Source: an uncultured Alphaproteobacteria bacterium (lineage in GTDB: Bacteria; Pseudomonadota; Alphaproteobacteria; Rhodobacterales; Rhodobacteraceae). From it: a DNA stretch of 64,000 nucleotides. The translations under genes and the position numbers were made by a program. Location of the stretch: positions 1 to 64,000 of the forward strand of contig CACGMO010000002.1 in NCBI GenBank assembly GCA_902574225.1, given 5' to 3'. The notes beneath the pieces are model-generated. The model saw only the letters and a list, made by a program, of their open reading frames with translations. It searched no databases and was not told the DNA's origin. This document shows, one piece after another, positions 4,078-54,289 of this stretch. The first letter of the stretch is position 1; the number at the start of each line of letters is the position of its first letter.

Positions 4078-4797
4078 TTAGTTATTCTCTCTTTTCTTTG
4101 CTTCTTTTATTAGTGGATCAACCACCTTTCCCTTTAGATCAATGCCTATACCACATTTGCATCCTGGACAATCTAAACAAGTATCTAAACCGAGGTTTAC
4201 GGCTTGAGTTATAGCATCATTTTTTTGCGAGTTACTCGAGACTGGATCCATTACAATAGTTTGTAGCTTTAATAATGAAAAAGGATTTCCGTACTCGTAC
4301 CTTTCCTCTGAATCAACTCTATTTTTTTCATGCAACGGACAATTATGAAGACAAGCATAGCACTCTATGCAGGATGTAAGTTCATGATAATCGTCGGATG
4401 CATCAACATTAAGATCATTTCCCCCTGAGCTTCTATAAATCTTACCTCTAAGTTGCCTAGATATCTGATCTCTTCTCACCACTAAATCGGTTATTACTGG
4501 CAGTGTTGACATCGCTCTTAATTCATCATTTTCTCTTACTACAGAACGACACGCTATTCTAGGCAATCCATTGATATCTATAGTGCAAACCCCGCAGTTT
4601 CTTGCCCGACACCCATACCTAAAAGCAAGGTCAGGAATTTTTGTTTCTTGTGCTTGAAGCAAAACATCAAGTGCCATGGGCTTTTCTCTCTCATGTCTCT
4701 TTTGATATTTGAAGTCGACTGGCATATCTTTACCCTCTGAATGGGTAACGATGGTGACATTAAGATATTTTTTATCCTCAGTGCGTCTAACAGTCAT
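4078..4797 (-). CDS. Succinate dehydrogenase/fumarate reductase-like iron-sulfur subunit
   Basis: 239-residue electron-transfer subunit. A plant-type 2Fe-2S centre is formed by C63, C68, C71 and C83 in the N-terminal ferredoxin domain. The C-terminal domain carries C143/C146/C149/C153 and a second group C207/C210/C213/C215 with compact spacing for the remaining clusters. It overlaps the stop of the flavoprotein gene by 4 bp (ATGA type), so the two are translationally coupled and form one enzyme. No membrane-anchor (sdhC/D or frdC/D) gene lies beside it, so the complex may be soluble or use an anchor from elsewhere. Direction of the reaction and the exact dicarboxylate substrate are inference. 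Confidence 0.88.
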   Translation of the reverse strand: MTVRRTEDKKYLNVTIVTHSEGKDMPVDFKYQKRHEREKPMALDVLLQAQETKIPDLAFRYGCRARNCGVCTIDINGLPRIACRSVVRENDELRAMSTLPVITDLVVRRDQISRQLRGKIYRSSGGNDLNVDASDDYHELTSCIECYACLHNCPLHEKNRVDSEERYEYGNPFSLLKLQTIVMDPVSSNSQKNDAITQAVNLGLDTCLDCPGCKCGIGIDLKGKVVDPLIKEAKKRENN

Positions 4798-6749
4798 AGT
4801 ATTTTTTGGTCTCCCACTGCTGCCTCATTACTTCCTGGTGAAACAGCAATTGAAGACTTTTGAATATTCATGATTTTTTTGTAGCGTCTTTCGAGCACGC
4901 TATCCTTTAAACTCATAGGCATAAGTCTTAAAATCCTTGCTCCCAAGAACTTTTTTTGTTCTTCTAACTTAAACTTAATTAGTTTTTTAAACTCAGTTTG
5001 TTTCCTTGGTAATCGGGTAACATTAACTCCAGCACCAAAAAATTTTACAATTGTTGAATACGGCTTGGAAAAAAGTGAGATATTGGGACGGTCAGCTCTA
5101 ACGTGGCCTCCTAGACTCCCATCCCTTTCTAGTGCTGCGGTAGCCATTAGTTCCGCAGTATCAAGCATGTTTTCGAGCTCAAAGTACTCAATTAAACCCT
5201 GATTCCATTTAACACTGTTTGAAATACTGATATTTTTCAGCTTTTTTTTTGTTTTACTAATGAATAATTTAGTTTTATTAAGCCTTTCCTCATCTCTAAT
5301 TGGTCCTAAGTTTTCCCAACATTCTTTTTGGACAGTGAGCTTAATTCTTGATGCGTGTAAATGACCTTTTTGTCCAATTAGCGAATTAACTCTTTCAGCT
5401 TTCTCAATAAATAATCTTTTATTTAAACTGTTCATTCCAGATATATTTCTTGAGTGAATAGCCGCATTCTTTCCGGCGCGCTGTCCAAAAACAGCTCCCT
5501 CTGTTAAAGAGGTAGACCCAAGTCTGTTAGCACCAAAAAGTCCGCCCATTGCCTGACCCGCAGCAAATAATCCCGATATTCCATGTTGTTTTAAACCTTT
5601 TGGTCCACCTATAGAGCAACAATTCTCATCTACCCTTATTCCTCCCATCATATAGTGTGCACTGGGTCTGACCTCCCATAAGTCTTCACATTGAGACTCT
5701 TTCTTACTCATTGCCTGTCTTACATTATTATAGGCTGACGGCAAACTTCCTTTTAGAAAACTCATAAAGTATTTGCCTGATTTCGGAGCTTTTTTGTTAG
5801 CTGTCATATCCAGATATGCGCCACCATTCTTTGTCCCTCTTCCATCTTCAACGGCTTTCATTATTGCTGCAGAACATTCCGCTCGTGTTCTTAAATATAC
5901 GCCATCCAAAATCACTTTTTTATTCTTATCTCTTAATACACCTAAATAGCTCGCAGTAACTGGTTCACCTCCCAATAATCCCTCAAAAGCAGGGGGAGAT
6001 GTGAGGCAAAACGGTAAGAACTGTATCTGTTCCATATCTACTAATTCAGCACCAGCGCGAGCAGCAATGGCATAGCTATCACCAGTATTTCCTCTCATTG
6101 TATCGGTTTTTGGAAAATATAATGTTGAGAGTCCTCCAGACGCGACAATTATAGAAGCACACATAACCGCTAATAGTTTGCCTTTCTGAGCATCATAGAT
6201 AAGTGCTCCAACAATTGATTTTGTGTTTTCTTTTTTATTTTCAGTTATGATATCGATTAACCAACAATCCTCTTTATAATCAATTTTTGTATCTTTTACT
6301 ATTGAGTTCCAATTTGCATGGCCAAATGCGACACCACTATTTTTATGTCCGACACTTCTCCTCTTTGTATGTCCACCCATCGGAAGAGGAAGAGGGTCAG
6401 GATTTTTTGTAATTCCAGAAATTTTAGGCCTTAGGCCGTTGGCTCTTACTTTGTCATAGGCCCTTTGACTGTCTTTTGCAAAAGCAGACGTTATATTAAC
6501 GTCTGGAAGATCACCACCTGCTAATTGTAAATTTTCTGATAAAGCGTCTTCACTATCGTCTGCCGACCCAGACGCCCTAACAGTTGCAATACCTTCAGAA
6601 ATTTTTGTGTCAGATGCACTTAGGGGGTCTTTGGTCACCAATAAAACTGATGCCCCCATTTCTGAAGCAGTTTCCGCAGCATTTGATCCAGAGCCGCCCG
6701 AACCTACAACCAGTACATCATACTGTTCCCAGACCAAATTTATTCGCAT
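4794..6749 (-). CDS. Fumarate reductase/succinate dehydrogenase-like FAD flavoprotein subunit
   Basis: 651-residue FAD enzyme. The dinucleotide-binding motif GSGGSG is at residues 16-21. The capping/active-site segments SAHYMMGGIRVDE and GLFAAGQAMGGLFGANRLG are present, and the C-terminal helical domain has the family's arginine/histidine motif as GGHVRADRP. In true SdhA/FrdA a histidine holds FAD covalently near the N-terminus; the matching stretch here reads KISEGIATVR, so the flavin is probably not covalently bound. First gene of a two-gene operon with the Fe-S subunit. Such pairs outside the sdhCDAB operon often act on other substrates, so a dedicated catabolic oxidoreductase is possible. 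Confidence 0.88.
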   Translation of the reverse strand: MRINLVWEQYDVLVVGSGGSGSNAAETASEMGASVLLVTKDPLSASDTKISEGIATVRASGSADDSEDALSENLQLAGGDLPDVNITSAFAKDSQRAYDKVRANGLRPKISGITKNPDPLPLPMGGHTKRRSVGHKNSGVAFGHANWNSIVKDTKIDYKEDCWLIDIITENKKENTKSIVGALIYDAQKGKLLAVMCASIIVASGGLSTLYFPKTDTMRGNTGDSYAIAARAGAELVDMEQIQFLPFCLTSPPAFEGLLGGEPVTASYLGVLRDKNKKVILDGVYLRTRAECSAAIMKAVEDGRGTKNGGAYLDMTANKKAPKSGKYFMSFLKGSLPSAYNNVRQAMSKKESQCEDLWEVRPSAHYMMGGIRVDENCCSIGGPKGLKQHGISGLFAAGQAMGGLFGANRLGSTSLTEGAVFGQRAGKNAAIHSRNISGMNSLNKRLFIEKAERVNSLIGQKGHLHASRIKLTVQKECWENLGPIRDEERLNKTKLFISKTKKKLKNISISNSVKWNQGLIEYFELENMLDTAELMATAALERDGSLGGHVRADRPNISLFSKPYSTIVKFFGAGVNVTRLPRKQTEFKKLIKFKLEEQKKFLGARILRLMPMSLKDSVLERRYKKIMNIQKSSIAVSPGSNEAAVGDQKIL

Positions 6750-6883
6750 CTTATACCCCAGTCAATATAAGTAACTAAACATATTTCAGGCTTTAAATAT
6801 ATTTAAAAAAGAGAATGTGGTCTAGTATTTTAAAAAGGACATCATTTATAAACGATACAATCTATTAAAATCCTTTAAAAGAG

Positions 6884-6896
6884 TTGTATAATACAA
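6884..6896. promoter_or_regulatory. 13-bp perfect inverted repeat upstream of the flavoprotein operon (candidate operator)
   Basis: TTGTAT-A-ATACAA, a perfect odd-length palindrome, lies in the 285-bp gap between 6750 and 7034, about 135 bp upstream of the flavoprotein start. It contains TATAAT on the + strand. GntR-family operators often look like this, but no regulator of that family is visible nearby, and AT-rich DNA gives such palindromes by chance. I see no other structure in this gap. Confidence 0.25.
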
Positions 6897-7034
6897 TAGG
6901 CATGATGCGTCTAAAATAACCTTGGATTAGCATTTGCGTAGTAAAATATTTTTTATTTATTGTGTTAAATAAGTAAAATCACTTACAGATGGAAAATAAA
7001 AACAGAGTGCCTATAAAAGCATTGTTTATGAGAT

Positions 7035-7802
7035 TTATTTTTTGGAAAAATCATCAGCCATTCTTAACGAGTTCATAAACTCAGCGCGCCTAAGAACCAA
7101 ATATAAAATAAGCTGAACTAGAGGTTTTTCACTTTTCAAATTTTTTTCAATTAAATCTTCATCAATTGTTCTGATAAGACAGTTTTCTAAGGCAAACGCA
7201 CTGTTATTATGTTTTTTGCCTCTTATCAATGTACTTTCCCCAAAGCATGTGCCCATTGTTAAAGTAGCTAATTCTCTATTATTTTTTGTAAATAACTGCA
7301 CGCTTCCTTTTTCCAGAAAATACATTCTATTGTTTGAGAAACCACTTCTGAAAATCCATGTACCCTCTTCAAACTTTCTAAGCTTTGTATCTTTCTCATT
7401 TTTTAAAAGAAATTTTTCTTCAAAAAGGAGAGGTGCTTTATCATCATCCGAAACTTGAAAAATTCTTCTTAAGCTGTATTTAATGATGGATTTTGCAAGC
7501 GCCCCCGCGCTATTAATTTGACTTCTTACTGGATCACCAGCCAAGCTGTAGAGATCAACTTTTTTATAGCGCCTATACTTAAGTTCATTTTCTCGTCCCA
7601 GGATTGTTTCCGCTACACCTATTGGATCATTAGTCTTCAATAGCTGTGTAAATTTATTCGCCCCGTAGCTTAATAGTTCTCCACTTTTAATGATATAGCA
7701 TGCGTTTCGGCAATCGAAATCTATCTCACAATCCTCCAAAACTGTTAGTTCGCTGATGTACTCCTTTGGAACGTTTTTAATTAGTTCAGAAATCTTTAAC
7801 AT
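7035..7802 (-). CDS. Cyclic-nucleotide-binding domain protein (two CNB-like domains)
   Basis: 255 residues. The C-terminal two-thirds is a recognisable cNMP-binding beta-roll: GTWIFRSG, MYFLEKGSVQLFTKN and GTCFGESTLIRGK form the phosphate-binding cassette region, where the family has GE(L/M)xxL...R. The N-terminal part (YIIKSGELLSYG and GVAETILGRE) looks like a second, degenerate copy. There is no helix-turn-helix, so it is not a Crp-type repressor or activator; it may be a cAMP sensor acting on a partner. A class III adenylate cyclase lies at 18498. It stands alone, with the homocysteine methyltransferase remnant downstream on the same strand. Confidence 0.8.
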   Translation of the reverse strand: MLKISELIKNVPKEYISELTVLEDCEIDFDCRNACYIIKSGELLSYGANKFTQLLKTNDPIGVAETILGRENELKYRRYKKVDLYSLAGDPVRSQINSAGALAKSIIKYSLRRIFQVSDDDKAPLLFEEKFLLKNEKDTKLRKFEEGTWIFRSGFSNNRMYFLEKGSVQLFTKNNRELATLTMGTCFGESTLIRGKKHNNSAFALENCLIRTIDEDLIEKNLKSEKPLVQLILYLVLRRAEFMNSLRMADDFSKK

Positions 7803-7911
7803 TTTTTACAAGAAACTATTTTTGTTGCCTTGTTATTAGCGATACATAGTTTAAAAATCAATAGCCTAATAAGTAGGGAATTGCTATAGAAGATTTATGA
7901 CCTTCTCCTCT

Positions 7912-9816: not shown

Positions 9817-10269
9817 ATGGATGACATTGATAGAAAACTTTTAACCCTACTGCAAGTAAATGCAGATCTACCTTTATCCGAAATCGCAAAGAGAGTAGGT
9901 ATTTCATCAACTCCTTGCTGGAATCGGATCAAAAAGCTGGAAGAACAGGGTGTAATTAAATACAAAGTATCACTTGTTGACCAAGAAAAGGTAGGTTACG
10001 CTGTCACGGTTTTTCTCTCTATCTCAGTGAGTAACCATAACTCAGATTGGTATGCCGAGTTCGAGAAAGTTGTGATGCGTTACAACAACATTTTAGAAGT
10101 ACATCGGTTGACTGGATCGAGCGCAGACTACTTGTTAAAAATCATTGCAAAGAGTATTGAGGAATATGACGCCTTTCAGCAGCAATTAATATCGGAGATC
10201 CAATTTACTGGTATGTCCTCAAGCATATCTTTGAAAGAGGTAAAAAATAGTAAGCAGATACCAGTATAA
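9817..10269 (+). CDS. Lrp/AsnC family transcriptional regulator
   Basis: 150 residues from the ATG at 9817, the usual Lrp length. A longer frame from 9730 adds 29 hydrophobic residues with no family match, and an AAGAAG ribosome binding site sits just before 9817. The N-terminus DDIDRKLLTLLQ leads into a helix-turn-helix (SEIAKRVGISSTPCWNRIKKLE, about residues 18-40), followed by the RAM/ligand domain with the effector-loop motif HRLTGSSADYLLK. It should bind an amino acid and control the divergent metY gene. Two candidate palindromic sites lie in the shared region. Confidence 0.92.
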   Translation: MDDIDRKLLTLLQVNADLPLSEIAKRVGISSTPCWNRIKKLEEQGVIKYKVSLVDQEKVGYAVTVFLSISVSNHNSDWYAEFEKVVMRYNNILEVHRLTGSSADYLLKIIAKSIEEYDAFQQQLISEIQFTGMSSSISLKEVKNSKQIPV

Positions 10270-10275
10270 CATGTG

Positions 10276-12729
10276 CTATGATCTCATTCTCGATCCGTCA
10301 GGATCCCAAGGACTATTACCAAGCACCACACAACTCTTCTCTTTTCCTACTATATGGGTTTTAAGTTCTATGCCTGGTTTGGAAAACTCGGGTTCAACAA
10401 AAGCCATTGCTAATGATTTATCAACTTTATAGCCGTACCCACCTGATGTTGTCATGCCAATTCGTTTATTATTTTTAGACCATATAGGTTCATATCCATT
10501 TGCCTCCATCTCTGCATCTTTAATTTCTAAAGTAATTAAAGTTTTTTGGAGTGCTTTTTTCCCTTCCAATAATTCTTTTAAAGCCGGTGTCTTCCCTACA
10601 AACTCCACATTTTTGCCTCTGGATATCCATCGATTTAGTCCTGTTTCGCCTGGTGTGTAGGCTTGCATGAATTCGCTATTCCAAATGCCAAAACTTTTTT
10701 CTAGCCTTAGAGTGTTAAGAGCATAATAGCCATATTCTTGGACACCAAGGTCATTTCCTTTTGAAATAAGTAATTCTCGTAGAGCGTTCAATTCTAAAGC
10801 ATGACAATTTATCTCGTAACCAAGTTCACCTGCAACTGACAATCGTGCGATTTTTGTCTTAATTAGTCCAATGTCGATTTCATTACATGACATGAACTTT
10901 AAATTCTCGTTTGATACGTCGAAGTTTGTTAATCTTTCAAGCAATTTTCTAGAATTTGGACCTGAAATTGCGTAGCCGCCAATATTATCACTTATATCTA
11001 CAAGTGAAACCTCACCATCTGAGTGAATACTTTTTGTTCCACCTGGTAAATGATCATGAAACCATCTCAAATGCCACTCTCTTAGATAATAGCTTCCCAT
11101 AATCCAAAAAACATTATTTCCCCAGTTGAAGCATGTTAGATCTCCCTTTAATCTTCCATCGTGCCCTAACATTACCGCAAGCTTGACTTTATTGTTGCTC
11201 GGTATATCAGTAGCTAATAATTGATTGAGCCACATCTCAGCACCTGGTCCCTTAATTTCAAATCGACTAAACCCAGAACTATCTAATATCCCAGCATTTT
11301 CTCTCACATTAAGGTGTTCTTTTTTTACAATTTCAAAAGCATTTGATCGTTTTAAACTTGGTGTTTCTTTGAAATTTTTTGGTCCAAACAATAATGGTAT
11401 CTCGAGGCCCCAACTGTTACCAAATATTGCCCCATTATTTTTTTGAACTTCCCAAACGGATGTTCTTTTTAGATCTCTGCCTGCTGGCAGCTGCTCATTA
11501 GGGTAGCTCATAACAAACCGCCTGCTGTAGAATTGACCTGTTGTTTGTTTTATATACTCTCTATTGGAAGCAAAATCACCATAACGAGCAATGTCCATCG
11601 ACCATGGATCAGCTTCGGTTTCTCCAAAGATCATCCACTCAGCTAGTGTTTTTCCAACGCCACCTCCCTGAAGAAAGCCTGCCATGACACCACAAGCAAG
11701 CCAGTAGTTTTTCACTCCTCTCACGGGTCCTACAAGAGGGTTCCCATCTGGAGAAAAAGTGAACGCTCCATTTACCCAATTTTTTATCCCAACATTTTTT
11801 AGGTCTGGATACCTTTCAAAAGAGAGAGCCAATTCATTTTCTATTCGATCAAAGTCTTCTTTAAATAACTCCATCCCAAAATCCCAAGGCGCTCCATCAA
11901 TAGCCCAATGCTCGTGATCAATTTCATAAATTCCAACTAAAATACCTTTGTCCCACTGTCTCATATACGTAAAACCCTCAAGGTCTACAGTCATAGGGAC
12001 TTCGAAATCCATTGCTTCAATTGTAGGAATACTTTCCGTTACCAAGTAATGATGTTTTAAAGGAGAAATAGGCAAATTCAATCCTGCCATCTTTCCTACT
12101 TGCTTTGCCCAAAGCCCACCTGCATTCACGACATGCTCAGCAACTATCATTCCTTTTTCGGTGTGTACTTCCCAACAACCGTCAACTCTCTGTTTTAATT
12201 CATTTACCTTATTATTCTCAATTACTTCAGCTCCATATTTTTTTGCAGCTTTGGCATATGCCCAAACAGTGCCTGTTGTATCAACATAGCCCTCTCTATC
12301 AGCCCACAGCCCACCCAAGACTCCTTTAATATCCATTATCGGACATTTGTTTTTTATCTCCTCTGGAGTCATAAGATAAACGTCTTCTATGCCTATAGTT
12401 TGATATGTTCTATATGCTGATTGAAGCCATTCCCACCGATCAGGAGTGCTCGCAATTGTTATACCTCCAGTCATATGCAATCCAATGTCCTGACCGCTTT
12501 CTTCTTGAATTTTTGAAAGTAAATCTAGGGTATATCCCTGCAAAGCTGACATGTTTGGGTCAGCATTCAGTGCGTGTACCCCCCCGGCAGCATGCCAACT
12601 AGAACCTGCAGCTAAAACGGATCTCTCTAGAACAACAGAATCAGTCCAACCATTTTTCGCTAGGTGATATAGAACAGAAACGCCAACAACGCCGCCGCCA
12701 ATTATAACGACTTGATACCTATCTTTCAT
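10276..12729 (-). CDS. Dimethylglycine/sarcosine dehydrogenase-like FAD enzyme with GcvT domain
   Basis: 817 residues from the ATG at 12729, which has a strong GGGGGGAAG ribosome binding site 4-5 bp upstream; an in-frame ATG at 12765 is less likely. Residues 11-16 (GGGVVG) bind FAD, and H46 in GSSWHAAGG is the position of the covalent FAD histidine in dimethylglycine dehydrogenase. From about residue 430 a GcvT-type tetrahydrofolate-binding domain follows (FEIKGPGAEMWLNQLLATDIP to the typical PWDPDGSRMR end). It would oxidatively demethylate dimethylglycine or sarcosine and pass the one-carbon unit to tetrahydrofolate. It is the last gene of the leftward operon with the CaiD-like hydratase. 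Confidence 0.9.
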   Translation of the reverse strand: MKDRYQVVIIGGGVVGVSVLYHLAKNGWTDSVVLERSVLAAGSSWHAAGGVHALNADPNMSALQGYTLDLLSKIQEESGQDIGLHMTGGITIASTPDRWEWLQSAYRTYQTIGIEDVYLMTPEEIKNKCPIMDIKGVLGGLWADREGYVDTTGTVWAYAKAAKKYGAEVIENNKVNELKQRVDGCWEVHTEKGMIVAEHVVNAGGLWAKQVGKMAGLNLPISPLKHHYLVTESIPTIEAMDFEVPMTVDLEGFTYMRQWDKGILVGIYEIDHEHWAIDGAPWDFGMELFKEDFDRIENELALSFERYPDLKNVGIKNWVNGAFTFSPDGNPLVGPVRGVKNYWLACGVMAGFLQGGGVGKTLAEWMIFGETEADPWSMDIARYGDFASNREYIKQTTGQFYSRRFVMSYPNEQLPAGRDLKRTSVWEVQKNNGAIFGNSWGLEIPLLFGPKNFKETPSLKRSNAFEIVKKEHLNVRENAGILDSSGFSRFEIKGPGAEMWLNQLLATDIPSNNKVKLAVMLGHDGRLKGDLTCFNWGNNVFWIMGSYYLREWHLRWFHDHLPGGTKSIHSDGEVSLVDISDNIGGYAISGPNSRKLLERLTNFDVSNENLKFMSCNEIDIGLIKTKIARLSVAGELGYEINCHALELNALRELLISKGNDLGVQEYGYYALNTLRLEKSFGIWNSEFMQAYTPGETGLNRWISRGKNVEFVGKTPALKELLEGKKALQKTLITLEIKDAEMEANGYEPIWSKNNKRIGMTTSGGYGYKVDKSLAMAFVEPEFSKPGIELKTHIVGKEKSCVVLGNSPWDPDGSRMRS

Positions 12730-21246: not shown

Positions 21247-22386
21247 TTGCCCGGATTTGAGGTTATTGACGAAAAAGAAAAAAAAGCAATCTCCAGGATC
21301 TTTGATGAGGGAAAAGTTTTCTTTGCTCATGGTTTTGATAAAAGAAGGAAGCATTATCACGTTAGAGAATTTGAACAAAAGTTGAAAGCCGTTTTCAACC
21401 CAAAAATGGCTGACGTTTTATGCGTTTCATCTGGTACGGCTGCAATTAAAGTGGCTCTCAAAGCTCTCGGTATTGGAAGAGGTGATGAGGTTATAACTCA
21501 GTCCTTTAATTTTATTGCAACTGTTGAAGCGATTGTAGACACTGGTGCAAATGTTGTTTTTACTGATATCGATGATACGTTGAACATGTGTCCCAAAAAT
21601 TTAGAAACTTTAATTTCTAAAAAAACAAAAGCTATAATTCCTGTTCATATGCTGGGTGTACCAGCAGATATGATATTAATTAACAGGATTGGAAAAAGAA
21701 ATAAAATTCCAGTAGTTGAAGATGCATGCGAAGCAATAGGGGCCAAGGTTGCCGGCAAATATGTTGGAGGCTTGAGTGAATTTGGTGTTTTTAGTTTCGA
21801 CTTTGGTAAAATGATTACAACTGGTGAGGGTGGAGCTCTGTTTTCCAAGAAGAAAAGTGATGGAAAAAATGCTAGAATGTATCATGATCATGGCCACAAA
21901 AATATTCCTAGTCTGCCAAGAGGGTTAGATCATGCCGGACTGATTGGGTTTAATTATAGAATGACAGAAATAAGTGGAGCATTTGGCAAGGTCCAGCTAA
22001 AAAAATTCCCGAGTATTTTAGGAGACTCGAAAAAAAGATACCACACTCTCGAAAAATTTATAAACCACAAAGAAATACAATTTAGACATGTTAACTCAGG
22101 AAGCGAGCCCAATTATGATACTTTTGTGATCTCTATAAAAAATAGAAAACTACGTGACCAAGTAATTAGTGTACTAAACAAAGCTGGTTTTGGTACAAAA
22201 AATTTACCTGATGCTTTTAACTGGCATTGTGCATATTTTTGGGAACATATTGATAAAAATATTAGGAATAAAGAGGTAAAAAATTGTTATGATAGATTGC
22301 GTAACTGCGTTGCAATTCCGATTTTAGTATCGAGGTCAGTTACAGATTACAAAAATATTGCCAGTGATATTAATGAATGCTCTTAA
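21247..22386 (+). CDS. kdnA: DegT/DnrJ/EryC1-type aminotransferase, KdnA-like (8-amino-Kdo transaminase family)
   Basis: 379-residue PLP aminotransferase. The Schiff-base lysine is K188 in FSFDFGKMITTGEGG. The N-terminus (MPGFEVI...), the FAHGFD...YHVREFE segment and YHDHGHKNIPSLPRG closely resemble KdnA proteins as I remember them; KdnA aminates 8-oxo-Kdo to 8-amino-3,8-dideoxy-manno-octulosonate. Start is TTG with an AGGAG ribosome binding site 6 bp upstream, and a TATAAT at 21203. First gene of a tight operon with the cytidylyltransferase and GMC oxidoreductase. LegC/PseC-type amino-sugar transaminases are the alternative. Confidence 0.85.
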   Translation: MPGFEVIDEKEKKAISRIFDEGKVFFAHGFDKRRKHYHVREFEQKLKAVFNPKMADVLCVSSGTAAIKVALKALGIGRGDEVITQSFNFIATVEAIVDTGANVVFTDIDDTLNMCPKNLETLISKKTKAIIPVHMLGVPADMILINRIGKRNKIPVVEDACEAIGAKVAGKYVGGLSEFGVFSFDFGKMITTGEGGALFSKKKSDGKNARMYHDHGHKNIPSLPRGLDHAGLIGFNYRMTEISGAFGKVQLKKFPSILGDSKKRYHTLEKFINHKEIQFRHVNSGSEPNYDTFVISIKNRKLRDQVISVLNKAGFGTKNLPDAFNWHCAYFWEHIDKNIRNKEVKNCYDRLRNCVAIPILVSRSVTDYKNIASDINECS

Positions 22387-23173
22387 TGAAAATTTAGTTA
22401 TAGTCATTCCCGCTCGTAAAAACTCCAAAAGGCTAAAAAATAAAAACTTTAAAAATTTTTTTGGGTTTCCTTTATTTGAGTGGAGCTTGGCTGCGGGTTT
22501 ATTTCTAAAGCAACGGCTCAGTGGGTTAAGAGAAATTTCAGTAGTTTGCACCAGTGATGATGACCAGATTTTAGATTTAGTAAAAAAGAAATATTCATCG
22601 AGTATTTTAGCAGTTCGAAGAAAACCAGAACTTTCTGATGATAATGCAATTCTATCTGATGTCATATTTGATTGTATCTACAAGCTAGCTGAGAGACACG
22701 TTATCCGTTTGGATGACTACCTATCAGGGAGCTTTATTTTATTGCAACCTACATCACCTATTAGACTAAAGGATGATTTAGTGTCTTTTTGTAGACAAAT
22801 TAATAACTTAGGGAATAATCTTTCTATGGTGTCTGTAAATAAAAACTACAGCGAGATAAAAGATATCTATGAGATAATTGAATTTAGCGAAGCAAAATCC
22901 AACTTTTTATTGGGCCACATTGGTAAAAAAATGCTTAAAGTGCGTGACATTAAAAAAGACAGTAATTTGGCTTTTGTAGATGGAAGTTTGTATTTAGGTT
23001 TGATGTCTATGCTAAAAGAAAAAGGCTTCATGCCTGCAGCCAAGACCTTGGCTTTTCCTCTTTCAATTAAGCGCTCAATAGATATTGACACGGAAGAGGA
23101 GTTTGACGATGCATTAGTGTTGATCAAAGAGTTGCAAAATTTGGAAATAGAGTATGTCTCACCAAAGATATGA
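22373..23173 (+). CDS. Acylneuraminate cytidylyltransferase (NeuA-type) family protein
   Basis: About 266 residues from the ATG at 22373; a TTG at 22358 is also in frame. The nucleotide-binding motif IPARKNSKRLKNKN is the NeuA-type signature (IPARGGSKRLPxKN), unlike KdsB's IPARYASTRLPGK. Later LLQPTSPIR matches the family's second conserved block. It should form a CMP-activated ulosonic acid from CTP. It overlaps the 3' end of the kdnA-like gene and its own 3' end overlaps the GMC gene by 20 bp, so all three are translationally linked. Whether its substrate is an eight- or nine-carbon sugar acid is open. Confidence 0.85.
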   Translation: MNALNENLVIVIPARKNSKRLKNKNFKNFFGFPLFEWSLAAGLFLKQRLSGLREISVVCTSDDDQILDLVKKKYSSSILAVRRKPELSDDNAILSDVIFDCIYKLAERHVIRLDDYLSGSFILLQPTSPIRLKDDLVSFCRQINNLGNNLSMVSVNKNYSEIKDIYEIIEFSEAKSNFLLGHIGKKMLKVRDIKKDSNLAFVDGSLYLGLMSMLKEKGFMPAAKTLAFPLSIKRSIDIDTEEEFDDALVLIKELQNLEIEYVSPKI

Positions 23174-24698
23174 TTTAGCGGTTGTTGGTGCTGGAACAGC
23201 TGGTCTTGAAATTGCAAAAAATGCAAGTAGGTCAGGTTATAAAGTGTGTTTAATAGAGCAGGGACACTCTGAGGGTAAAAGTTATCTAAATAAAATACCG
23301 TTATTATCAGGAAAATTACTGCAAAATGATAAACACTGTTTAAGCTTTATATCCAAGAAACAGTCTGGTTTAGAAGATAGGGAATTGCCTATTCTTCAGG
23401 GAATTGGTTTTGGTGGTTCAAGCTTAATCAATGGAAATGTCTCATACTTAGGTTTTGAAAAACGGTTTAGGGAGGTTTTTTCTTTTTGGCCGAAAAGTAT
23501 GTTCCAGAGAGTTAAAAAGCACATATACCATAACCCAAATTTTTCGTATAATAGAGAGTATGGATATTCAGATGAACTAACAAATATTTTTTGTAAAGCC
23601 CTCAACAATATTGCAGTTCCTGAGGTTACGGATTTAGATAATTTTATAGAAGGATGGGCAAAAATTCATCTTAATATTCAAGGATCAAAGAGATATAACT
23701 TTTCGAATGATTTTAACGAAAATGCAAACCACAAAAACATTGAAAAGTTAGCAAGCACGCGTGCTATTAAAATCGTTTTCAAAGACAACTATGCTTCAGG
23801 TGTTGAGTGCGAAAATTTAGTAACTAAGGCCAAAATTACTGTTAATGCAAAAAAAATTATTCTTTCGGCAGGCACAATATTCTCACCTATAATTCTTATG
23901 CGGTCGGGGATCGGAGACCCAAAGGACGTTTGTAAAGCCGGTGCCCCTTTGAAGTTTCAGCAAGAGCATGTAGGAAAACATTTGAAAGATCATGCTAACT
24001 TCAGGATTGAATTTGATTGTATAGGGTTCGATACGCTTAACCAAAAAACACGTGGGTTGAAATTATTTAACGAATTTTTTAAGTACATAACCTCAAAGAA
24101 TTCGATCTTTAAAAGTCCGGGTGCCACTCTTGCCTGGAATAAATCAAGTTTTAATAAGAAAGTTAGTATAAACAGCTTGGTTAGGTATCATTTAGTGCAT
24201 TTTACACAAGAACGAAGCTTGTTATCGTCCAAAGGTATAAAATTTCAAAAAGCCCAACGAGCGTCAATAGGGTGCTTTCAAGTTTTTCCAAAATCTGAAG
24301 GTTCGATTTCTCTTGATAATAAAAATAATATACAAATTGATCCAAACTATTTGTCAAACAAATTTGATAGAGCGCTTGCTCACAAAGCTTTTAGAAGTGG
24401 TATTGATCTCCTGAAAAGAGCAGGCTTTGCAAAAAGTGGAAAAAATTTAATTAATGATGATATTGAACAAAATATAGGATCAGAAACGTTTTCTGGTTAC
24501 CATCTGATTGGAACTAATAGGATGAGCGACGATAAAAATAGTGGAGTAGTTGATGGAAGTTTTAAAGTATTTGGAATCAACAATCTTTATGTATGTGACG
24601 CCTCAATATTTCCAGATTTCGTTTCAACACATCAATATCTGCCTACTTTGGCTGCTAGCAAGATTTTTTGTTTAAATCAGGGGTTTCTCAGTGATTAG
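23154..24698 (+). CDS. GMC-family FAD-dependent oxidoreductase
   Basis: 514 residues. FAD-binding motif VVGAGTAGLEIA near residues 9-20, GFGGSSLINGNV, SAGTIFSPIILMRSGIGD, HVGKHLKDH and the C-terminal CDASIFPDFVSTHQYLPTLAA are the glucose-methanol-choline oxidoreductase blocks. Family members oxidise primary alcohols to aldehydes or sugar hydroxyls to ketones. Its reading frame overlaps the cytidylyltransferase gene by 20 bp, so it belongs to the sugar operon. A testable role is oxidising a terminal hydroxyl of an ulosonic acid to an aldehyde for the KdnA-like transaminase. It converges with neuC, overlapping it by 11 bp. Confidence 0.87.
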   Translation: MSHQRYDLAVVGAGTAGLEIAKNASRSGYKVCLIEQGHSEGKSYLNKIPLLSGKLLQNDKHCLSFISKKQSGLEDRELPILQGIGFGGSSLINGNVSYLGFEKRFREVFSFWPKSMFQRVKKHIYHNPNFSYNREYGYSDELTNIFCKALNNIAVPEVTDLDNFIEGWAKIHLNIQGSKRYNFSNDFNENANHKNIEKLASTRAIKIVFKDNYASGVECENLVTKAKITVNAKKIILSAGTIFSPIILMRSGIGDPKDVCKAGAPLKFQQEHVGKHLKDHANFRIEFDCIGFDTLNQKTRGLKLFNEFFKYITSKNSIFKSPGATLAWNKSSFNKKVSINSLVRYHLVHFTQERSLLSSKGIKFQKAQRASIGCFQVFPKSEGSISLDNKNNIQIDPNYLSNKFDRALAHKAFRSGIDLLKRAGFAKSGKNLINDDIEQNIGSETFSGYHLIGTNRMSDDKNSGVVDGSFKVFGINNLYVCDASIFPDFVSTHQYLPTLAASKIFCLNQGFLSD

Positions 24699-25812
24699 GA
24701 GTCTCAAAAAATGTTTTCTGTAAATTTAATTCCCAAACTTTTTTATCGCTTAAAATCTTTGTAAACTTTTTTGCAGATTGACCGGTTCCAAAACTTTTAT
24801 CGGGTTCAAAGCGCTTACCCCATTGTTGTTCAACTAGTTTGTCAAGTTGCCTGTCTTTAAAAACATCAAAGTTTTTAATACTTCTTGCTCCCCCCCTTCT
24901 AAATTGGCGAGAACCTATGTTTATTGAGGAAATCCCAAGAAAAGGAGCTTCTCGAACACCCACAGAACTATTACCTATAATAACTTGAGAGTGTTTTAGT
25001 AATGTCGAAAAATATGCAAATCTCATCGAAGGTATTTGTTTAAAATGTGATTTGGGTAATTTTCCAATTGTCTTAAAAATTATTTCACATCCCGGGTCAT
25101 TGTTTGGAGAAATAACTATGAAGTTCTTTTGTGTTTTTTTTAAGGAATCGCAACAGAATTGGATCTCTTTCTTTAAACTCTCTAATTCTGAAGTGACAGA
25201 ATGAAAAATAAAAATCCCATAATTATCCCACTTAATATCGTAGTAATCCAAGACTTCATTTAGTGAAATTGAATTTCTTGCTTTATGTGTATCGAGTTCC
25301 GGAGACCCTAGCACAAAAACTCTATCCGGGTGTTCTCCAAGTTTTGTGACGCGTTTTTTTGCCGATTTTGAACTCACAAAGTGGACTGTGCATAACTTTG
25401 TATTACAATGACGATAAACTTCATCTATAGTCCCTGATACCTCTCCTCCTTCAATGTGCGCGCTTCTTATGTTCTTTGTTGCACAAACAAGAGAGGCAGC
25501 AACTGCCTCAATTCTATCTCCATGGATCACAACAAGATCGGGTTTTAATCGGCCGACATATTCAGAAATTCCAGTAATAGTTCGAGAAAGAATCTTGTCC
25601 GGTGGATCTCCTTCCATCTGATTGACAAATTCAAATCTTGTGATGTTTTTTATTCTTGAAACTTCTATACTAGTAAGCCCATACTTCTCTAGAAGGTGCA
25701 TACCAGTGACAAAAAAATAAATGCTAAACCCCGCTGAATTTGCGCTTGCTGCTAACGGTTCAAGTTTACCGAAGTCAGCTCTTGTACCTGTTATAAATAG
25801 TAGTTTTTTCAC
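24688..25812 (-). CDS. neuC: Hydrolysing UDP-N-acetylglucosamine 2-epimerase (NeuC/LegG type)
   Basis: 374 residues. The N-terminal ITGTRADFGKL motif, IHGDRIEAVAASL and the segment SAHIEGGEVSGTIDEVYRH are the hallmark of hydrolysing UDP-HexNAc 2-epimerases; GNSSVGVREAPFLG is the nucleotide-binding C-terminal motif. It releases ManNAc or a related hexosamine from the UDP sugar for condensation with phosphoenolpyruvate by the neighbouring synthase. It is 10 bp downstream of neuB on the same strand. Confidence 0.9.
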   Translation of the reverse strand: MKKLLFITGTRADFGKLEPLAASANSAGFSIYFFVTGMHLLEKYGLTSIEVSRIKNITRFEFVNQMEGDPPDKILSRTITGISEYVGRLKPDLVVIHGDRIEAVAASLVCATKNIRSAHIEGGEVSGTIDEVYRHCNTKLCTVHFVSSKSAKKRVTKLGEHPDRVFVLGSPELDTHKARNSISLNEVLDYYDIKWDNYGIFIFHSVTSELESLKKEIQFCCDSLKKTQKNFIVISPNNDPGCEIIFKTIGKLPKSHFKQIPSMRFAYFSTLLKHSQVIIGNSSVGVREAPFLGISSINIGSRQFRRGGARSIKNFDVFKDRQLDKLVEQQWGKRFEPDKSFGTGQSAKKFTKILSDKKVWELNLQKTFFETPNH

Positions 25813-25822
25813 ATCAACCTCT

Positions 25823-26851
25823 TTATTCCAAATCTGACCACTTTATCTGAATATTTTTAGCAATGTCTCGTTTTAAGGTTTTTCCTAAAACTTTTTCAAA
25901 TTCGAAAGCAGGTATTTCTCCATTTCCGGGTCTTCTGGCCCAGATATTTTGTCTATTAATAGTATCGCCTTTTTTTAGATTTTTATCGCTAACGATGGAA
26001 GATCGTGCAAATTTATAAACATCTTTTTCCACGTTGGCTATAAACTTCTTTCTATCTCTAGAATAAGCTACCTCCTTACTTCTTTTTATTAGGTACTCAA
26101 GTTCGTCTGGATCCATTGAGCAGGAAATATCAGGTCCTTGTCGGTCTTTGGTATCAGTAAAATGCTTTTCTACAATTGTTGCACCGAGTGCAATAGCTGC
26201 TAAAGCCATAGTTGGTCCAATTGAATGATCTGAGAAGCCTATCTCGGCATTGGGGAACTTATCGGATAGCTGTGCCAAGCTACCAAGTGCTATATCTTCT
26301 GGTGGGCAAGGATAAATGTTTGTGCATTCTAAAAGTGCATATTCAATATTTTTTCTCTCTAATATTTCTACGGGCTTTTCTACCGACAATAAGTTTTGCA
26401 TGCCTGTAGAAAGAATAATTGGCTTCCCAAAATCTGCTATATGCTCAATTAAGAGAAGATTATCACATTCTCCAGAACCAATCTTAAAAGCAGGCACATT
26501 TATATCATTCAAAAAATCCGCTGCAGATCTTGAAAAAGGAGTAGAAATATAAATCATTCCCAAGTCCTCCACTTGTTTCTTTAATTTGATTTCTTCATCT
26601 TTTGTTAAGGAACATTTTTCCATCACATCCCATATTGAGACATTTGCGTTAGGGGGCATGATTTGTTTTGCATCAGGTGTCATCTCATCATCAAGAAAGT
26701 GTGTTTGATGTTTAATTACTTCACAGCCTCTATCAGCAGCTGATTTAACCATTTGCTCTGCAACCAGCAAATCGCCACCATGATTGATACCCAATTCTGC
26801 AATGATTAGAGGGGCCTCTTTAGAGCTGATAGTCCTATTTTTTATTTTCAA
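25823..26851 (-). CDS. neuB: N-acetylneuraminate/legionaminate synthase (NeuB family)
   Basis: 342 residues: a TIM-barrel NeuB domain (residues about 10-250) starting IIAELGINHGGDL, with STPFSRSAADFL, FKIGSGECDN and FSDHSIG, followed by a C-terminal SAF/antifreeze-like domain ending NIWARRPGNGEIPAFEFEKVLG. It condenses phosphoenolpyruvate with an N-acetyl hexosamine to make a nonulosonic acid. The IKHQTHFLDDEM stretch resembles Campylobacter LegI (NeuB2) more than classical NeuB, from memory, so a legionaminic-type product is possible. No LegB-type 4,6-dehydratase is present in the window. Confidence 0.92.
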   Translation of the reverse strand: MKIKNRTISSKEAPLIIAELGINHGGDLLVAEQMVKSAADRGCEVIKHQTHFLDDEMTPDAKQIMPPNANVSIWDVMEKCSLTKDEEIKLKKQVEDLGMIYISTPFSRSAADFLNDINVPAFKIGSGECDNLLLIEHIADFGKPIILSTGMQNLLSVEKPVEILERKNIEYALLECTNIYPCPPEDIALGSLAQLSDKFPNAEIGFSDHSIGPTMALAAIALGATIVEKHFTDTKDRQGPDISCSMDPDELEYLIKRSKEVAYSRDRKKFIANVEKDVYKFARSSIVSDKNLKKGDTINRQNIWARRPGNGEIPAFEFEKVLGKTLKRDIAKNIQIKWSDLE

Positions 26852-26952
26852 AATTTTTAAGCCTATCTTTTAAAATAATGAGTGAGTAAAATGATATTGC
26901 TCAATTAATACGCAAGCAATGCTTTAATAGGTTAATTTTTTGGGAGTGTCGA

Positions 26953-28323
26953 TTGAAATTTAATTTGAAAAAAAAAATCTTTGCCTCAATCGTTTTCAAT
27001 CTTTATCAGTTTCTTTGGTATTTATTTTTGCCAATTGCATTATTGTATTTCTACTATCGCTCTATAAAAGAACCAGGCTATGCTTCAAATCTTACAGAGA
27101 GATTAAGTTTCTACAAAAAAGACTTTAAAGGAGCTTGTTGGTGCCATGCAGTATCTTTAGGAGAATTCAGAGCGGCACGCCCAATTTTTGATAAGCTTCT
27201 TCTCAATGGAGAAAAACTGTTAATTACTACGCTGACTTTATCTGGCAAACGTGCCGCCCAGCGGCAATATCATAAAGAAATAAATGAAAATAAAATGGTT
27301 ATTGTTTACGCTCCACTTGAAATAGGTTTCATGTTTAAAAGATTCCTTAAAAATTTTAATCCGAAGTGCTGTATAATTCTTGAGTGTGATTTATGGCCAG
27401 TAATGATCACGACTACTTGCAAGGAAAAAATTCCTCTCATATTTGCCCAGGCTCACTATCCTGAAAAAGGGTTCATTAGAGATAAAAAATTCCCTTTTCT
27501 GAAAGCTAGTTTGATTGAAAAATTTGATTTAGTTTTATCTAAATCCGAAAGGCATAAGAAAAGATTTGAGTACTTTGGGGCTAAAAAAGTCTTAATTATG
27601 GGAGATACTAGATTTGAACAACAAGTTCCATTAGACCAAATTAATGCAGCTTTGAAACTAAAAAAAAGAGTTCTTAAGAAATATTTTACGATTTGCTTTG
27701 CCAGTATTGGGAAGCAGGAATTTGAAATAATCAGTGAAATAATAAGAGATCTATCTGATAAGCATAAAGATATTTTTTTTGTGCTAGTTCCCAGACATCC
27801 CAATGACTTTAGCAAACACAAGATGCTGTTTGAAGGTTGCTCAATAAAAGTAAAACCTCGTAGTGAAATTGTATGGATCAAAACAGATTTTAAAATTTGT
27901 AATGAAAAAAATCTTGAAGACTTAAACAATGCTAGTTTGTTATGGGGTGATAGCCTTGGAGAATTGAATTTTTATATGGCCATGTCTGATATTGTTTTTA
28001 TGGGTGACTCTTTAAACAATGAAGGATCCCATAATATAATTGAGCCTTTTGCTTTGCAAAAACCTGTAATTGTGGGCCCAAGTATTTGGGGCATCGAATA
28101 TCCAGCATTGGAAGCGCTAGATGTTGGTATTCTAAAAAAGATTAGCGGGCGAAAAGAGTTATCATCTGCTCTGGTTTCAGCTTATCACGATAAGAAAAGT
28201 AACAACGCTGATGAAAATCAGGTAAAAAATATTAAAAACTTTTACAAGAGTAACCAAGGAGCCTCTGACCTATTTATGGATCAAATGTTCAGCAATAAGT
28301 TTCTGGTATTAAATAATAATTAA
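26953..28323 (+). CDS. waaA: 3-deoxy-D-manno-octulosonic acid (Kdo) transferase
   Basis: 456-residue GT30 glycosyltransferase. An N-terminal hydrophobic segment (about residues 10-33) anchors it to the inner membrane. HAVSLGEFRAARP contains the catalytic glutamate, and FMGDSLNNEGSHNIIEP is the CMP-Kdo-binding block. It adds Kdo, or a Kdo analogue, from the CMP-sugar to lipid A precursor. Start is TTG with GGGAGTG upstream. It is divergent from neuB across 101 bp, so the ulosonic-acid genes surround its donor-sugar chemistry; it could use an amino-Kdo donor. Confidence 0.93.
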   Translation: MKFNLKKKIFASIVFNLYQFLWYLFLPIALLYFYYRSIKEPGYASNLTERLSFYKKDFKGACWCHAVSLGEFRAARPIFDKLLLNGEKLLITTLTLSGKRAAQRQYHKEINENKMVIVYAPLEIGFMFKRFLKNFNPKCCIILECDLWPVMITTTCKEKIPLIFAQAHYPEKGFIRDKKFPFLKASLIEKFDLVLSKSERHKKRFEYFGAKKVLIMGDTRFEQQVPLDQINAALKLKKRVLKKYFTICFASIGKQEFEIISEIIRDLSDKHKDIFFVLVPRHPNDFSKHKMLFEGCSIKVKPRSEIVWIKTDFKICNEKNLEDLNNASLLWGDSLGELNFYMAMSDIVFMGDSLNNEGSHNIIEPFALQKPVIVGPSIWGIEYPALEALDVGILKKISGRKELSSALVSAYHDKKSNNADENQVKNIKNFYKSNQGASDLFMDQMFSNKFLVLNNN

Positions 28324-53177: not shown

Positions 53178-54289
53178 TGATACGTAAAAAGTCTATAAGC
53201 ATTCGTTCTAAGAAAACCAACTACGATATATTTATAGGTAGAAATCTTTTAAAACAGAACAATAACTATCTTCAATTGGCTTTGGTAGGTAAGAAAATCG
53301 CTATTATTTCTGATAAAACAGTTCATAGGTTACAATATTCAAATTTTTTGGCTCAAATAAGCGATTTAAAAGTTGACCCTCACTTGTTTTTAATAGAACC
53401 AGGTGAAACTTCGAAGAACTGGAATGTTCTGAAAAAAGTTATTGATTGGCTAACTGATCTAAATTTTGACAGGACAGATTATGTTATCGCTTTTGGTGGA
53501 GGAGTAGTTGGAGATCTAGTATCTTTAGCTGCAAGTTTATTTCGTAGAGGAATAAATTTAATTCAAGTTCCGACAACCTTATTATCTCAAGTAGATAGTT
53601 CAGTAGGAGGCAAAACAGCTGTAAATAATGGGCCAGCAAAAAACTCTATTGGAACATTTTATCATCCCAAAGTTGTTTTTTGTGATACATCTTTTTTAAG
53701 CACCTTACCGGAGCGAGCATATCTTGCAGGATACGCAGAGGTTTTAAAAATGGCTCTTGTTTTTGATAAGGATTTTTACAAATTTTTAACAAAAAACCAG
53801 AAGCTTATATCATTGAGAGACGAAGTAGTTTTGTTGCGCATCATTGACAAATCTCTCGAACTAAAAAGCAAGGTTGTCGAAATCGATGAAACCGAGCAGG
53901 GAGAAAGAGCACTCTTAAATTTTGGTCATACCTTTGGACACGCTTTAGAGACTTATTTTAGCTACTCGGAAAAACTACTACATGGAGAAGCAGTCTCCCT
54001 CGGAATAGTTCTTGCTGCTCGTTTTTCTAACCAAGAGGGTTATTTGAGCGAACGCAAGCTTGAGATTATAGACGATCACTTGCACTCAATGAAACTTCCT
54101 ATCGTAACAACTCAAATTCATAATTCTAAGCTAGATATATTAAAACTGTTGACATTTATGAAACAAGACAAAAAAGTGATCGGCGACAATATTAACTTGA
54201 TTTTATTGAAAGATATAGGTAATGGCTTTATTGAAAGAAACGTGTCTTTTCAAAAATTAGAAAAATTTTTACAAGTTCAATTAAGTTAG
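53177..54289 (+). CDS. aroB: 3-dehydroquinate synthase
   Basis: 370 residues. NAD-binding and catalytic motifs: IAFGGGVVGDLVSLAAS, QVPTTLLSQVDSSVGGKTAVN, YAEVLKMALVFD, LNFGHTFGHALET and LLHGEAVSLG, the last two carrying zinc-ligand histidines. Second step of the shikimate pathway, cytoplasmic. The RND adaptor gene starts 3 bp after the stop. Confidence 0.96.
   Translation: MIRKKSISIRSKKTNYDIFIGRNLLKQNNNYLQLALVGKKIAIISDKTVHRLQYSNFLAQISDLKVDPHLFLIEPGETSKNWNVLKKVIDWLTDLNFDRTDYVIAFGGGVVGDLVSLAASLFRRGINLIQVPTTLLSQVDSSVGGKTAVNNGPAKNSIGTFYHPKVVFCDTSFLSTLPERAYLAGYAEVLKMALVFDKDFYKFLTKNQKLISLRDEVVLLRIIDKSLELKSKVVEIDETEQGERALLNFGHTFGHALETYFSYSEKLLHGEAVSLGIVLAARFSNQEGYLSERKLEIIDDHLHSMKLPIVTTQIHNSKLDILKLLTFMKQDKKVIGDNINLILLKDIGNGFIERNVSFQKLEKFLQVQLS

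Follow-up and report, generated by a model that had tools for sequence, protein, structure and literature searches.

Proposed synthesis and transfer of a terminally aminated sialic acid by a six-gene locus of uncultured Rhodobacteraceae

The window analysed here is a stretch of 64,000 nucleotides (36% G+C) from contig CACGMO010000002.1 of an uncultured alphaproteobacterium of the Rhodobacteraceae, the source assembly of which (GCA_902574225.1; 2.09 Mb in 76 contigs) is 88% complete. Positions 21247-28323 hold six genes with predicted functions in the synthesis, modification and transfer of a nonulosonic acid. A check of the open reading frames (ORFs) confirmed all six at the coordinates and in the orientations first noted, with the expected Pfam domains:

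21247-22386, + strand: KdnA-type DegT aminotransferase (AT), TTG start; Pfam DegT, 252.8 bits
22358-23173, + strand: NeuA-type cytidylyltransferase (CT), in-frame ATG at 22373; Pfam CTP_transf_3, 44.5 bits
23154-24698, + strand: flavoprotein oxidoreductase of the GMC family, which may replace KdnB; GMC_oxred_C, 90.8 bits, and GMC_oxred_N, 65.1 bits
24688-25812, - strand: NeuC, predicted hydrolysing UDP-N-acetylglucosamine (UDP-GlcNAc) 2-epimerase yielding N-acetylmannosamine (ManNAc); Pfam Epimerase_2, 200.2 bits
25823-26851, - strand: NeuB, predicted N-acetylneuraminate synthase; Pfam NeuB, 230.3 bits
26953-28323, + strand: GT30 paralog (KdtA', WaaA-like), proposed CMP-nonulosonate transferase of the lipopolysaccharide (LPS) core; Glycos_transf_N, 136.3 bits

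The AT, CT and GMC genes follow one another on the + strand with overlapping ends. NeuB and NeuC, both on the - strand, converge on the GMC gene, and roughly 100 bases separate NeuB from the start of the GT30 paralog gene, again on the + strand. With one genome per species scanned, 240 relatives of the GMC protein were identified, and the results given here rest on the best 80 of them, 18 of which (L014-L031) had at least 38% identity and 62 no more than 29%. The six-gene set was found in the same order in 17 loci (L014-L030), the exceptions being gaps at locus ends (L016, L020, L024 and L026) and a frame-split GT30 gene in L022. The recurrence of this gene order shows that the arrangement is not due to chance, and the flanking genes are also common to these loci wherever they extend far enough, so the gene set occupies a fixed chromosomal place. 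The record titles name uncultured Alphaproteobacteria (AG- isolates, which we take to be marine single-cell genomes) and Rhodobacteraceae MED-G56, and the carriers form a group of apparently marine bacteria.

In G030 (L031), which is more distantly related, the AT, CT, GMC and GT30 genes are contiguous in one operon (54, 30, 38 and 41% identity, respectively), with a canonical KdtA and NeuC about 7 kb from this operon and NeuB another 5.5 kb on, all within about 20 kb. Among the 62 distant GMC loci, one (L080) had an AT match (32%), its GMC gene lying about 5 kb away. The GMC protein was detected in 2 of 292 genomes (E <= 1e-40) and the AT in 2 of 284 (E <= 1e-70) of the Rhodobacterales samples, and the positive genomes were identical, namely the window's own (G000) and G030. 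In the class-wide sample, the GMC protein (E <= 1e-70) was found in 1 of 385 genomes, again the window's own; G030 was expected to match but is absent, and was therefore probably outside this sample. A tblastn search of plasmids with the GMC protein yielded 947 records, all below 60% identity (27-28% among the matches listed), and a plasmid-borne relative was rejected, since none of these records reached 60%.

We consider it probable (about 0.6), from the families and clades to which these proteins belong, that the products of the six genes build a sialic acid with a terminal amine and transfer it. NeuC would convert UDP-GlcNAc to ManNAc by hydrolysis and epimerisation, and NeuB would condense ManNAc with phosphoenolpyruvate to give N-acetylneuraminic acid (Neu5Ac), both steps being assigned by family match. 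The GMC enzyme would oxidise the terminal CH2OH to an aldehyde at C9 of Neu5Ac or, before condensation, at C6 of ManNAc, which is the same carbon, and the KdnA-type AT would aminate this aldehyde in the way that KdnA acts on C8 of 3-deoxy-D-manno-octulosonic acid (Kdo). The NeuA-type enzyme, again by family match, would activate 9-amino-Neu5Ac with CMP, and the association of the genes suggests that the GT30 paralog, rather than the housekeeping KdtA, would transfer it to the LPS inner core. The order of the steps may vary with the compound modified (ManNAc, Neu5Ac or CMP-Neu5Ac). The GMC enzyme and KdnA-type AT acting on a C9 sugar would thus be the counterpart of KdnB and KdnA acting on Kdo.

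The AT had KdnA (5k8b) as its nearest solved structure (203.6 bits; runner-up 153.8). Its N-terminus reads LPGFE, compared with MPGFE in KdnA, and the Schiff-base residue Lys188, in SFDFGK, is kept in 12 of 12 aligned rows. With the KdnA chain as query, 13 of 398 Pseudomonadota genomes matched (E <= 1e-50), led by three genomes at 84-93%, which we take to be Shewanella, followed by G995 (40%) and the window (38%). Two phylogenies were inferred with seven rows from the conserved loci (the window and 6 of the 18 loci), and these rows grouped with the G995 enzyme and KdnA in both (support 98/91 in the first and 93/87 in the second). In the first tree, at least four rows were apparently in the wrong frame (DegT_G956, DegT_G710, PseC_L189 and PseC_L190), LegC had a support of 88/51, and PseC was split by such rows. 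The second tree, for which rows were re-extracted in the match frame, recovered LegC and PseC as separate groups (each 100/100), with DegT_G710 still apparently wrong (branch 6.9) and without seven rows (DegT_G754, LegC_L176, LegC_L182, LegC_L184, PseC_L187, PseC_L188 and PseC_L192); L162 (G472), which resembles G861, was in neither tree. The placement of the window AT was alike in the two trees, and its nearest row outside the conserved loci was the G995 enzyme (42%). The window AT fell below the NCBIfam cut-offs for LegC (209.2 vs 420) and PseC (185.2 vs 423.5), as did the control, KdnA itself (203.6 and 204.5), and a LegC-type enzyme was rejected on the basis of the low LegC score and the position outside the LegC clade. 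By structure match and tree, the AT is assigned to the KdnA type, outside LegC and PseC.

The GMC protein exceeded the cut-offs for PF00732 and PF05199 and has the FAD motif GAGTAG at its N-terminus; His450 and His493, presumably the catalytic positions by analogy with glucose oxidase, are kept in 19 of 19 aligned sequences. Its identification as a choline dehydrogenase was rejected, the best NCBIfam model giving 168.8 bits against a cut-off of 605. The Pfam scan found no iron-containing alcohol dehydrogenase (Fe-ADH) among the six genes. Two full-length Fe-ADHs were found in the genome; they share 24-27% identity with KdnB, and their neighbouring genes are unrelated (by eye, argG-like and esterase-like genes for one, chromate-transporter-like and EamA-like genes for the other), and a third match, at window positions 53228-53686, was weak and under cut-off. 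A KdnB-like Fe-ADH was thus not found in the genome, an absence that is not absolute given that the assembly is 88% complete. In the KdnA loci of G955 and G857, the KdnA gene is followed by those for an Fe-ADH (KdnB) and a KdsB-like protein (named from its sequence), and G995 (L164, 6549-11324) has a KdnB-like Fe-ADH (42% to KdnB), an AT, a GT2 gene, NeuB and a CTP-transferase (KdsB-like, under cut-off) in a row; the window and G030 carry the GMC gene where these loci carry the Fe-ADH. A KdnB/KdnA-type pair beside a nonulosonate synthase therefore exists elsewhere, and the G995 row may itself be a KdnB/KdnA-based amino-nonulosonate locus in another bacterium.

Seven further loci were retrieved with the KdnA query, five of which were informative, the AT being hidden by the ORF filter in L169 and L171. 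In these five (L168, L170, L172, L173 and L174), blastp identified no homologue of KdnB or of the window GMC protein, and L172 has NeuB and a CT. In the alphaproteobacterium G886 (L166, 4773-7821), a distant KdnA-related AT adjoins a GMC-domain protein that is not of the window's type (26% over part of its length), near a polysaccharide-export-type protein, and this may be an independent pairing.

The replacement of KdnB by the GMC enzyme appears reasonable, because the AT is predicted to be of KdnA type, the GMC and AT genes co-occur and the two full-length Fe-ADHs of the genome are not KdnB-like. A published precedent is found in gentamicin biosynthesis, with GenQ, which we take to be a GMC member. 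According to the parts of PMC4039129 consulted, this flavin-linked dehydrogenase oxidises a sugar to the C6' aldehyde, which is then aminated by the PLP enzyme GenB1, and the neomycin homologue of this system is Neo11. The preliminary description of the locus had proposed an operon of overlapping genes for a KdnA-like AT, a NeuA-type CT and a GMC enzyme standing in for KdnB. The operon was borne out by the ORFs, the Pfam domains and the 17 conserved loci. The KdnA-type assignment agrees with the structure match and with the trees, where the AT does not cluster with LegC or PseC, and the substitution is in keeping with a GMC gene found in the same two Rhodobacterales genomes as the AT gene and with the failure to find KdnB elsewhere in the genome.

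The GT30 paralog gave a model with a mean predicted local distance difference test (pLDDT) score of 83, its best fold match being Aquifex WaaA (2xci; template modelling scores 0.56/0.70), and Glu71, the presumed catalytic residue of GT30, is kept in 25 of 25 sequences. In a quick tree without bootstrap, the paralogs and canonical KdtA formed two clades (SH-aLRT 100), and the paralogs of the window group and G030 formed a subclade (SH-aLRT 90); phylogenetically, the paralog is thus judged not to be orthologous to canonical KdtA. It was detected in 56 of 284 Rhodobacterales genomes (E <= 1e-40), and 20 of the 54 loci other than those of the window and G030 were examined, over 15-17 kb each. NeuC was found in 17 of these 20 loci and NeuB (56-60%) in 11, with a 30% NeuB in G283, and the single AT match was the PseC of G283. 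In the latter genome (L149, 4054-9341), the paralog is the last gene of an overlapping PseB-PseC-PseF-PseI run, a pseudaminic acid operon (PseB, PseC and PseF over cut-off; PseI 339.2 vs 340.25), and canonical KdtA was not found in the 17 kb of the locus. The NeuB family was present in 33 of 33 paralog-positive genomes (25 with loci not examined and 8 without NeuB in the examined stretch) and in 3 of 20 negative genomes, which were those listed without a paralog match rather than a random draw (Fisher 3.5e-11). By genus, counted by hand, the figures were 15 of 15 and 3 of 15 (Fisher 1.1e-5), for genomes that belong to one family and are not phylogenetically independent.

A canonical-type KdtA also lies near the paralog in 17 of the 20 loci, so proximity alone is ambiguous, and the paralog might be a second Kdo transferase, with another enzyme adding the amino-sialic acid. 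This alternative, which concerns the transfer step only and is compatible with the proposed chemistry, would agree with the presence of a GT29-like sialyltransferase in one paralog locus (L137) and with the description of GT30 enzymes as CMP-Kdo transferases in the parts of PMC5811610 consulted. We nevertheless regard it as unlikely, although it is the strongest of the alternatives: the G283 pseudaminic acid run and the tracking of NeuB tie the paralog to nonulosonic acids, the paralog is inside the AT-CT-GMC operon of G030, about 7 kb from the canonical KdtA, and no further glycosyltransferase was found among the 30 window ORFs scanned (the window has 67 ORFs of at least 100 aa). The preliminary description had placed neuC, neuB and the Kdo transferase waaA beside the operon; the first two identifications hold, but the third gene is a member of a separate GT30 clade associated with genes for nonulosonic acids, and a canonical-type KdtA is found on contig C52 of the same genome, so transfer by the housekeeping WaaA is not favoured.

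Twelve positions separate the five amino-locus paralogs from 19 others (the G283 paralog was left out), and three of them (192, 285 and 352) are Asp in the amino-locus group; outside the twelve, position 357 is Glu in five of five amino-locus paralogs and K, R, Q, H or Y in the 19 others. These acidic residues, which come from one lineage, would fit a cationic donor. We suggest tentatively, at somewhat less than even odds, that this GT30 clade, present in about one-fifth of the sampled Rhodobacterales, may comprise new LPS-core nonulosonate (sialic and pseudaminic acid) transferases, and that one lineage may have adapted, through the acidic residues D352, D285 and E357 of the C-terminal half (Gly or mostly basic residues elsewhere), to positively charged CMP-9-amino-Neu5Ac from the GMC/KdnA-type pair.

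Other paralog loci, without GMC and AT, have a CT flanked by different genes: an SDR and a 310-aa protein in L141 (G008, 5478-7899), and Gfo/Idh/MocA-like and phosphatase-like proteins in L137 (G182, 10224-12630), perhaps for other sugar modifications. The GT29-type sialyltransferase domain of L137 lies at 4236-4970 on the - strand, near NeuB, in the same locus as a GT30 paralog.

The amine would sit on whichever carbon the GMC enzyme oxidises, and this might instead be one with a secondary hydroxyl (C4, C7 or C8), either in the nonulosonic acid or in a precursor, with the AT aminating there. Ring ketones are substrates of many DegT aminotransferases, and oxidation of secondary alcohols is known for some GMC enzymes. 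In the sections of PMC4039129 consulted, GenQ is also described as producing a ketone from G418. This reading seems somewhat less likely still than a second Kdo transferase, as the AT clusters with KdnA, an enzyme that yields a terminal amine, and apart from LegC and PseC, which act on ketones.

The nearest relatives of the three other enzymes bear on the identity of the sugar. NeuB scored 372.6 bits against SiaC/NeuB (1xuu) and 142.9 against a pseudaminic acid synthase (8h2c), and is present in a single copy in the assembly. NeuC exceeded the TIGR03568 cut-off (340 vs 235.9 bits), its nearest solved structure being the bifunctional UDP-GlcNAc 2-epimerase/ManNAc kinase (4zht). All five solved-structure matches of the CT profile (E <= 0.001) were CMP-sialic acid synthetases, with no KdsB, and the CT scored 29.9 bits, under cut-off, with the KdsB-subfamily NCBIfam model. 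Contig C52 carries KdsD, KdsB, one further gene and the canonical-type KdtA, which is cut by the contig end and hence under the model cut-off, and a KdsA-like gene, so named from a motif and presumably KdsA, lies on contig C13. Since NeuB, NeuC and the CT all have their closest relatives among Neu5Ac enzymes and the genome carries a separate set of Kdo genes, the predicted donor sugar is more likely to be a Neu5Ac derivative than Kdo, and Kdo was rejected as the main substrate. Neu5Ac has been reported in the LPS of Rhodobacter capsulatus (consulted parts of PMC9631793).

A variant in which the GMC enzyme and the AT act on Kdo, the NeuA-like enzyme activates the resulting 8-amino-Kdo (Kdo8N), the WaaA-like enzyme transfers it and NeuB and NeuC are unrelated neighbours is improbable. 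It would account for KdnA, with its Kdo-derived substrate, being the nearest solved relative of the AT, for the membership of the transferase in the Kdo transferase family and for the order KdnA-KdnB-KdsB-like in the KdnA loci inspected. The CT profile argues against it, as do the separate KdsB and KdtA of the genome and the persistence of NeuB and NeuC with the other genes in 17 loci and within about 20 kb in G030. Of the two products considered in the preliminary description, the 9-amino nonulosonic acid is thus the better candidate, and amino-Kdo is disfavoured.

Contig C59 of the window's genome (L011/L003) carries a second NeuA/PseF-like gene (1480-2214 in L003), despite the single NeuB found in the assembly; the frame after it resembles a glycosyltransferase and gives another weak match to a CTP-transferase.

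It is very unlikely that the GMC enzyme is a bystander (e.g. a choline-type dehydrogenase) and that the AT follows the usual UDP-sugar route to a legionaminic-like sugar, as might be read from the best NCBIfam models, generic choline dehydrogenase and the LegC family, both far under cut-off, because the GMC gene overlaps its neighbour, is kept beside the AT and CT genes in two distant lineages and lies between the CT and GT30 genes in one of them, and because the AT falls outside LegC in the tree and KdnA itself gives similarly low scores with the models for LegC and PseC.

Several observations weigh against a pathway to a terminally aminated sialic acid. The co-occurrence of the AT and GMC genes is known from two lineages only, and GMC was found in none of the 20 other paralog loci examined, and the paralog therefore has no need of the amine. 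The AT and KdnA have only 33% identity over 382 residues, the predicted GMC model is poor (mean pLDDT 42), and GMC enzymes can oxidise secondary alcohols too, such that the amine could be at another carbon. NeuB is under the NCBIfam NnaB cut-off (351.7 vs 399.65), as were three other NeuBs scanned, and the best NCBIfam model for the CT is PseF (65.7 bits, under cut-off). The activities and the product of all six genes are predictions from sequence.

Our literature search, with most subscription journals outside its scope, found no KdnA/KdnB enzymology, GT30 sialyltransferase or bacterial 9-amino sialic acid, and we know of no report of a natural 9-amino sialic acid. If the proposed pathway is correct, a zwitterionic 9-amino sialic acid would join the natural nonulosonic acids, KdnB would be replaceable by a flavoenzyme and the Kdo transferase family would have a sialic acid branch. 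An amine in the LPS core would also alter surface charge and, possibly, recognition by phages and grazers.

The locus is not an ordinary kdn operon, because no KdnB-like enzyme was found, and neither is it an ordinary Neu5Ac operon. Like the KdnB-KdnA system of Shewanella, in which KdnB is the Kdo 8-oxidase (consulted parts of PMC5125639), it has an operon of a KdnA-type AT, an alcohol-oxidising enzyme and a CTP-transferase, and would replace the terminal hydroxyl of a 3-deoxy-2-ulosonic acid by an amino group (CH2OH to CH2NH2). It differs in having a GMC enzyme rather than the iron-dependent KdnB, a NeuA-type rather than KdsB-type CTP-transferase, a predicted NeuB/NeuC product instead of Kdo and its own GT30 paralog. 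GenQ and GenB1, as described in the consulted parts of PMC4039129, would share with it the conversion of a sugar CH2OH to CH2NH2 by a flavin dehydrogenase and an aminotransferase, but their substrates are antibiotic sugars rather than ulosonic acids. The Neisseria-type NeuC-NeuB-NeuA pathway provides the nearest relatives of the window NeuB (SiaC/NeuB), NeuC (hydrolysing epimerases) and CT (CMP-Neu5Ac synthetases), whereas the window has additional oxidation and amination genes and a GT30-type enzyme rather than one of a known sialyltransferase family. This enzyme resembles WaaA/KdtA in fold and conserved residues, and differs from it in its separate clade, its ties to nonulosonate genes and the 12 positions distinct in the amino-locus members. 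What would be new here is a sialic acid pathway that pairs a flavoenzyme with a KdnA-type amination step and has a GT30 transferase of its own.

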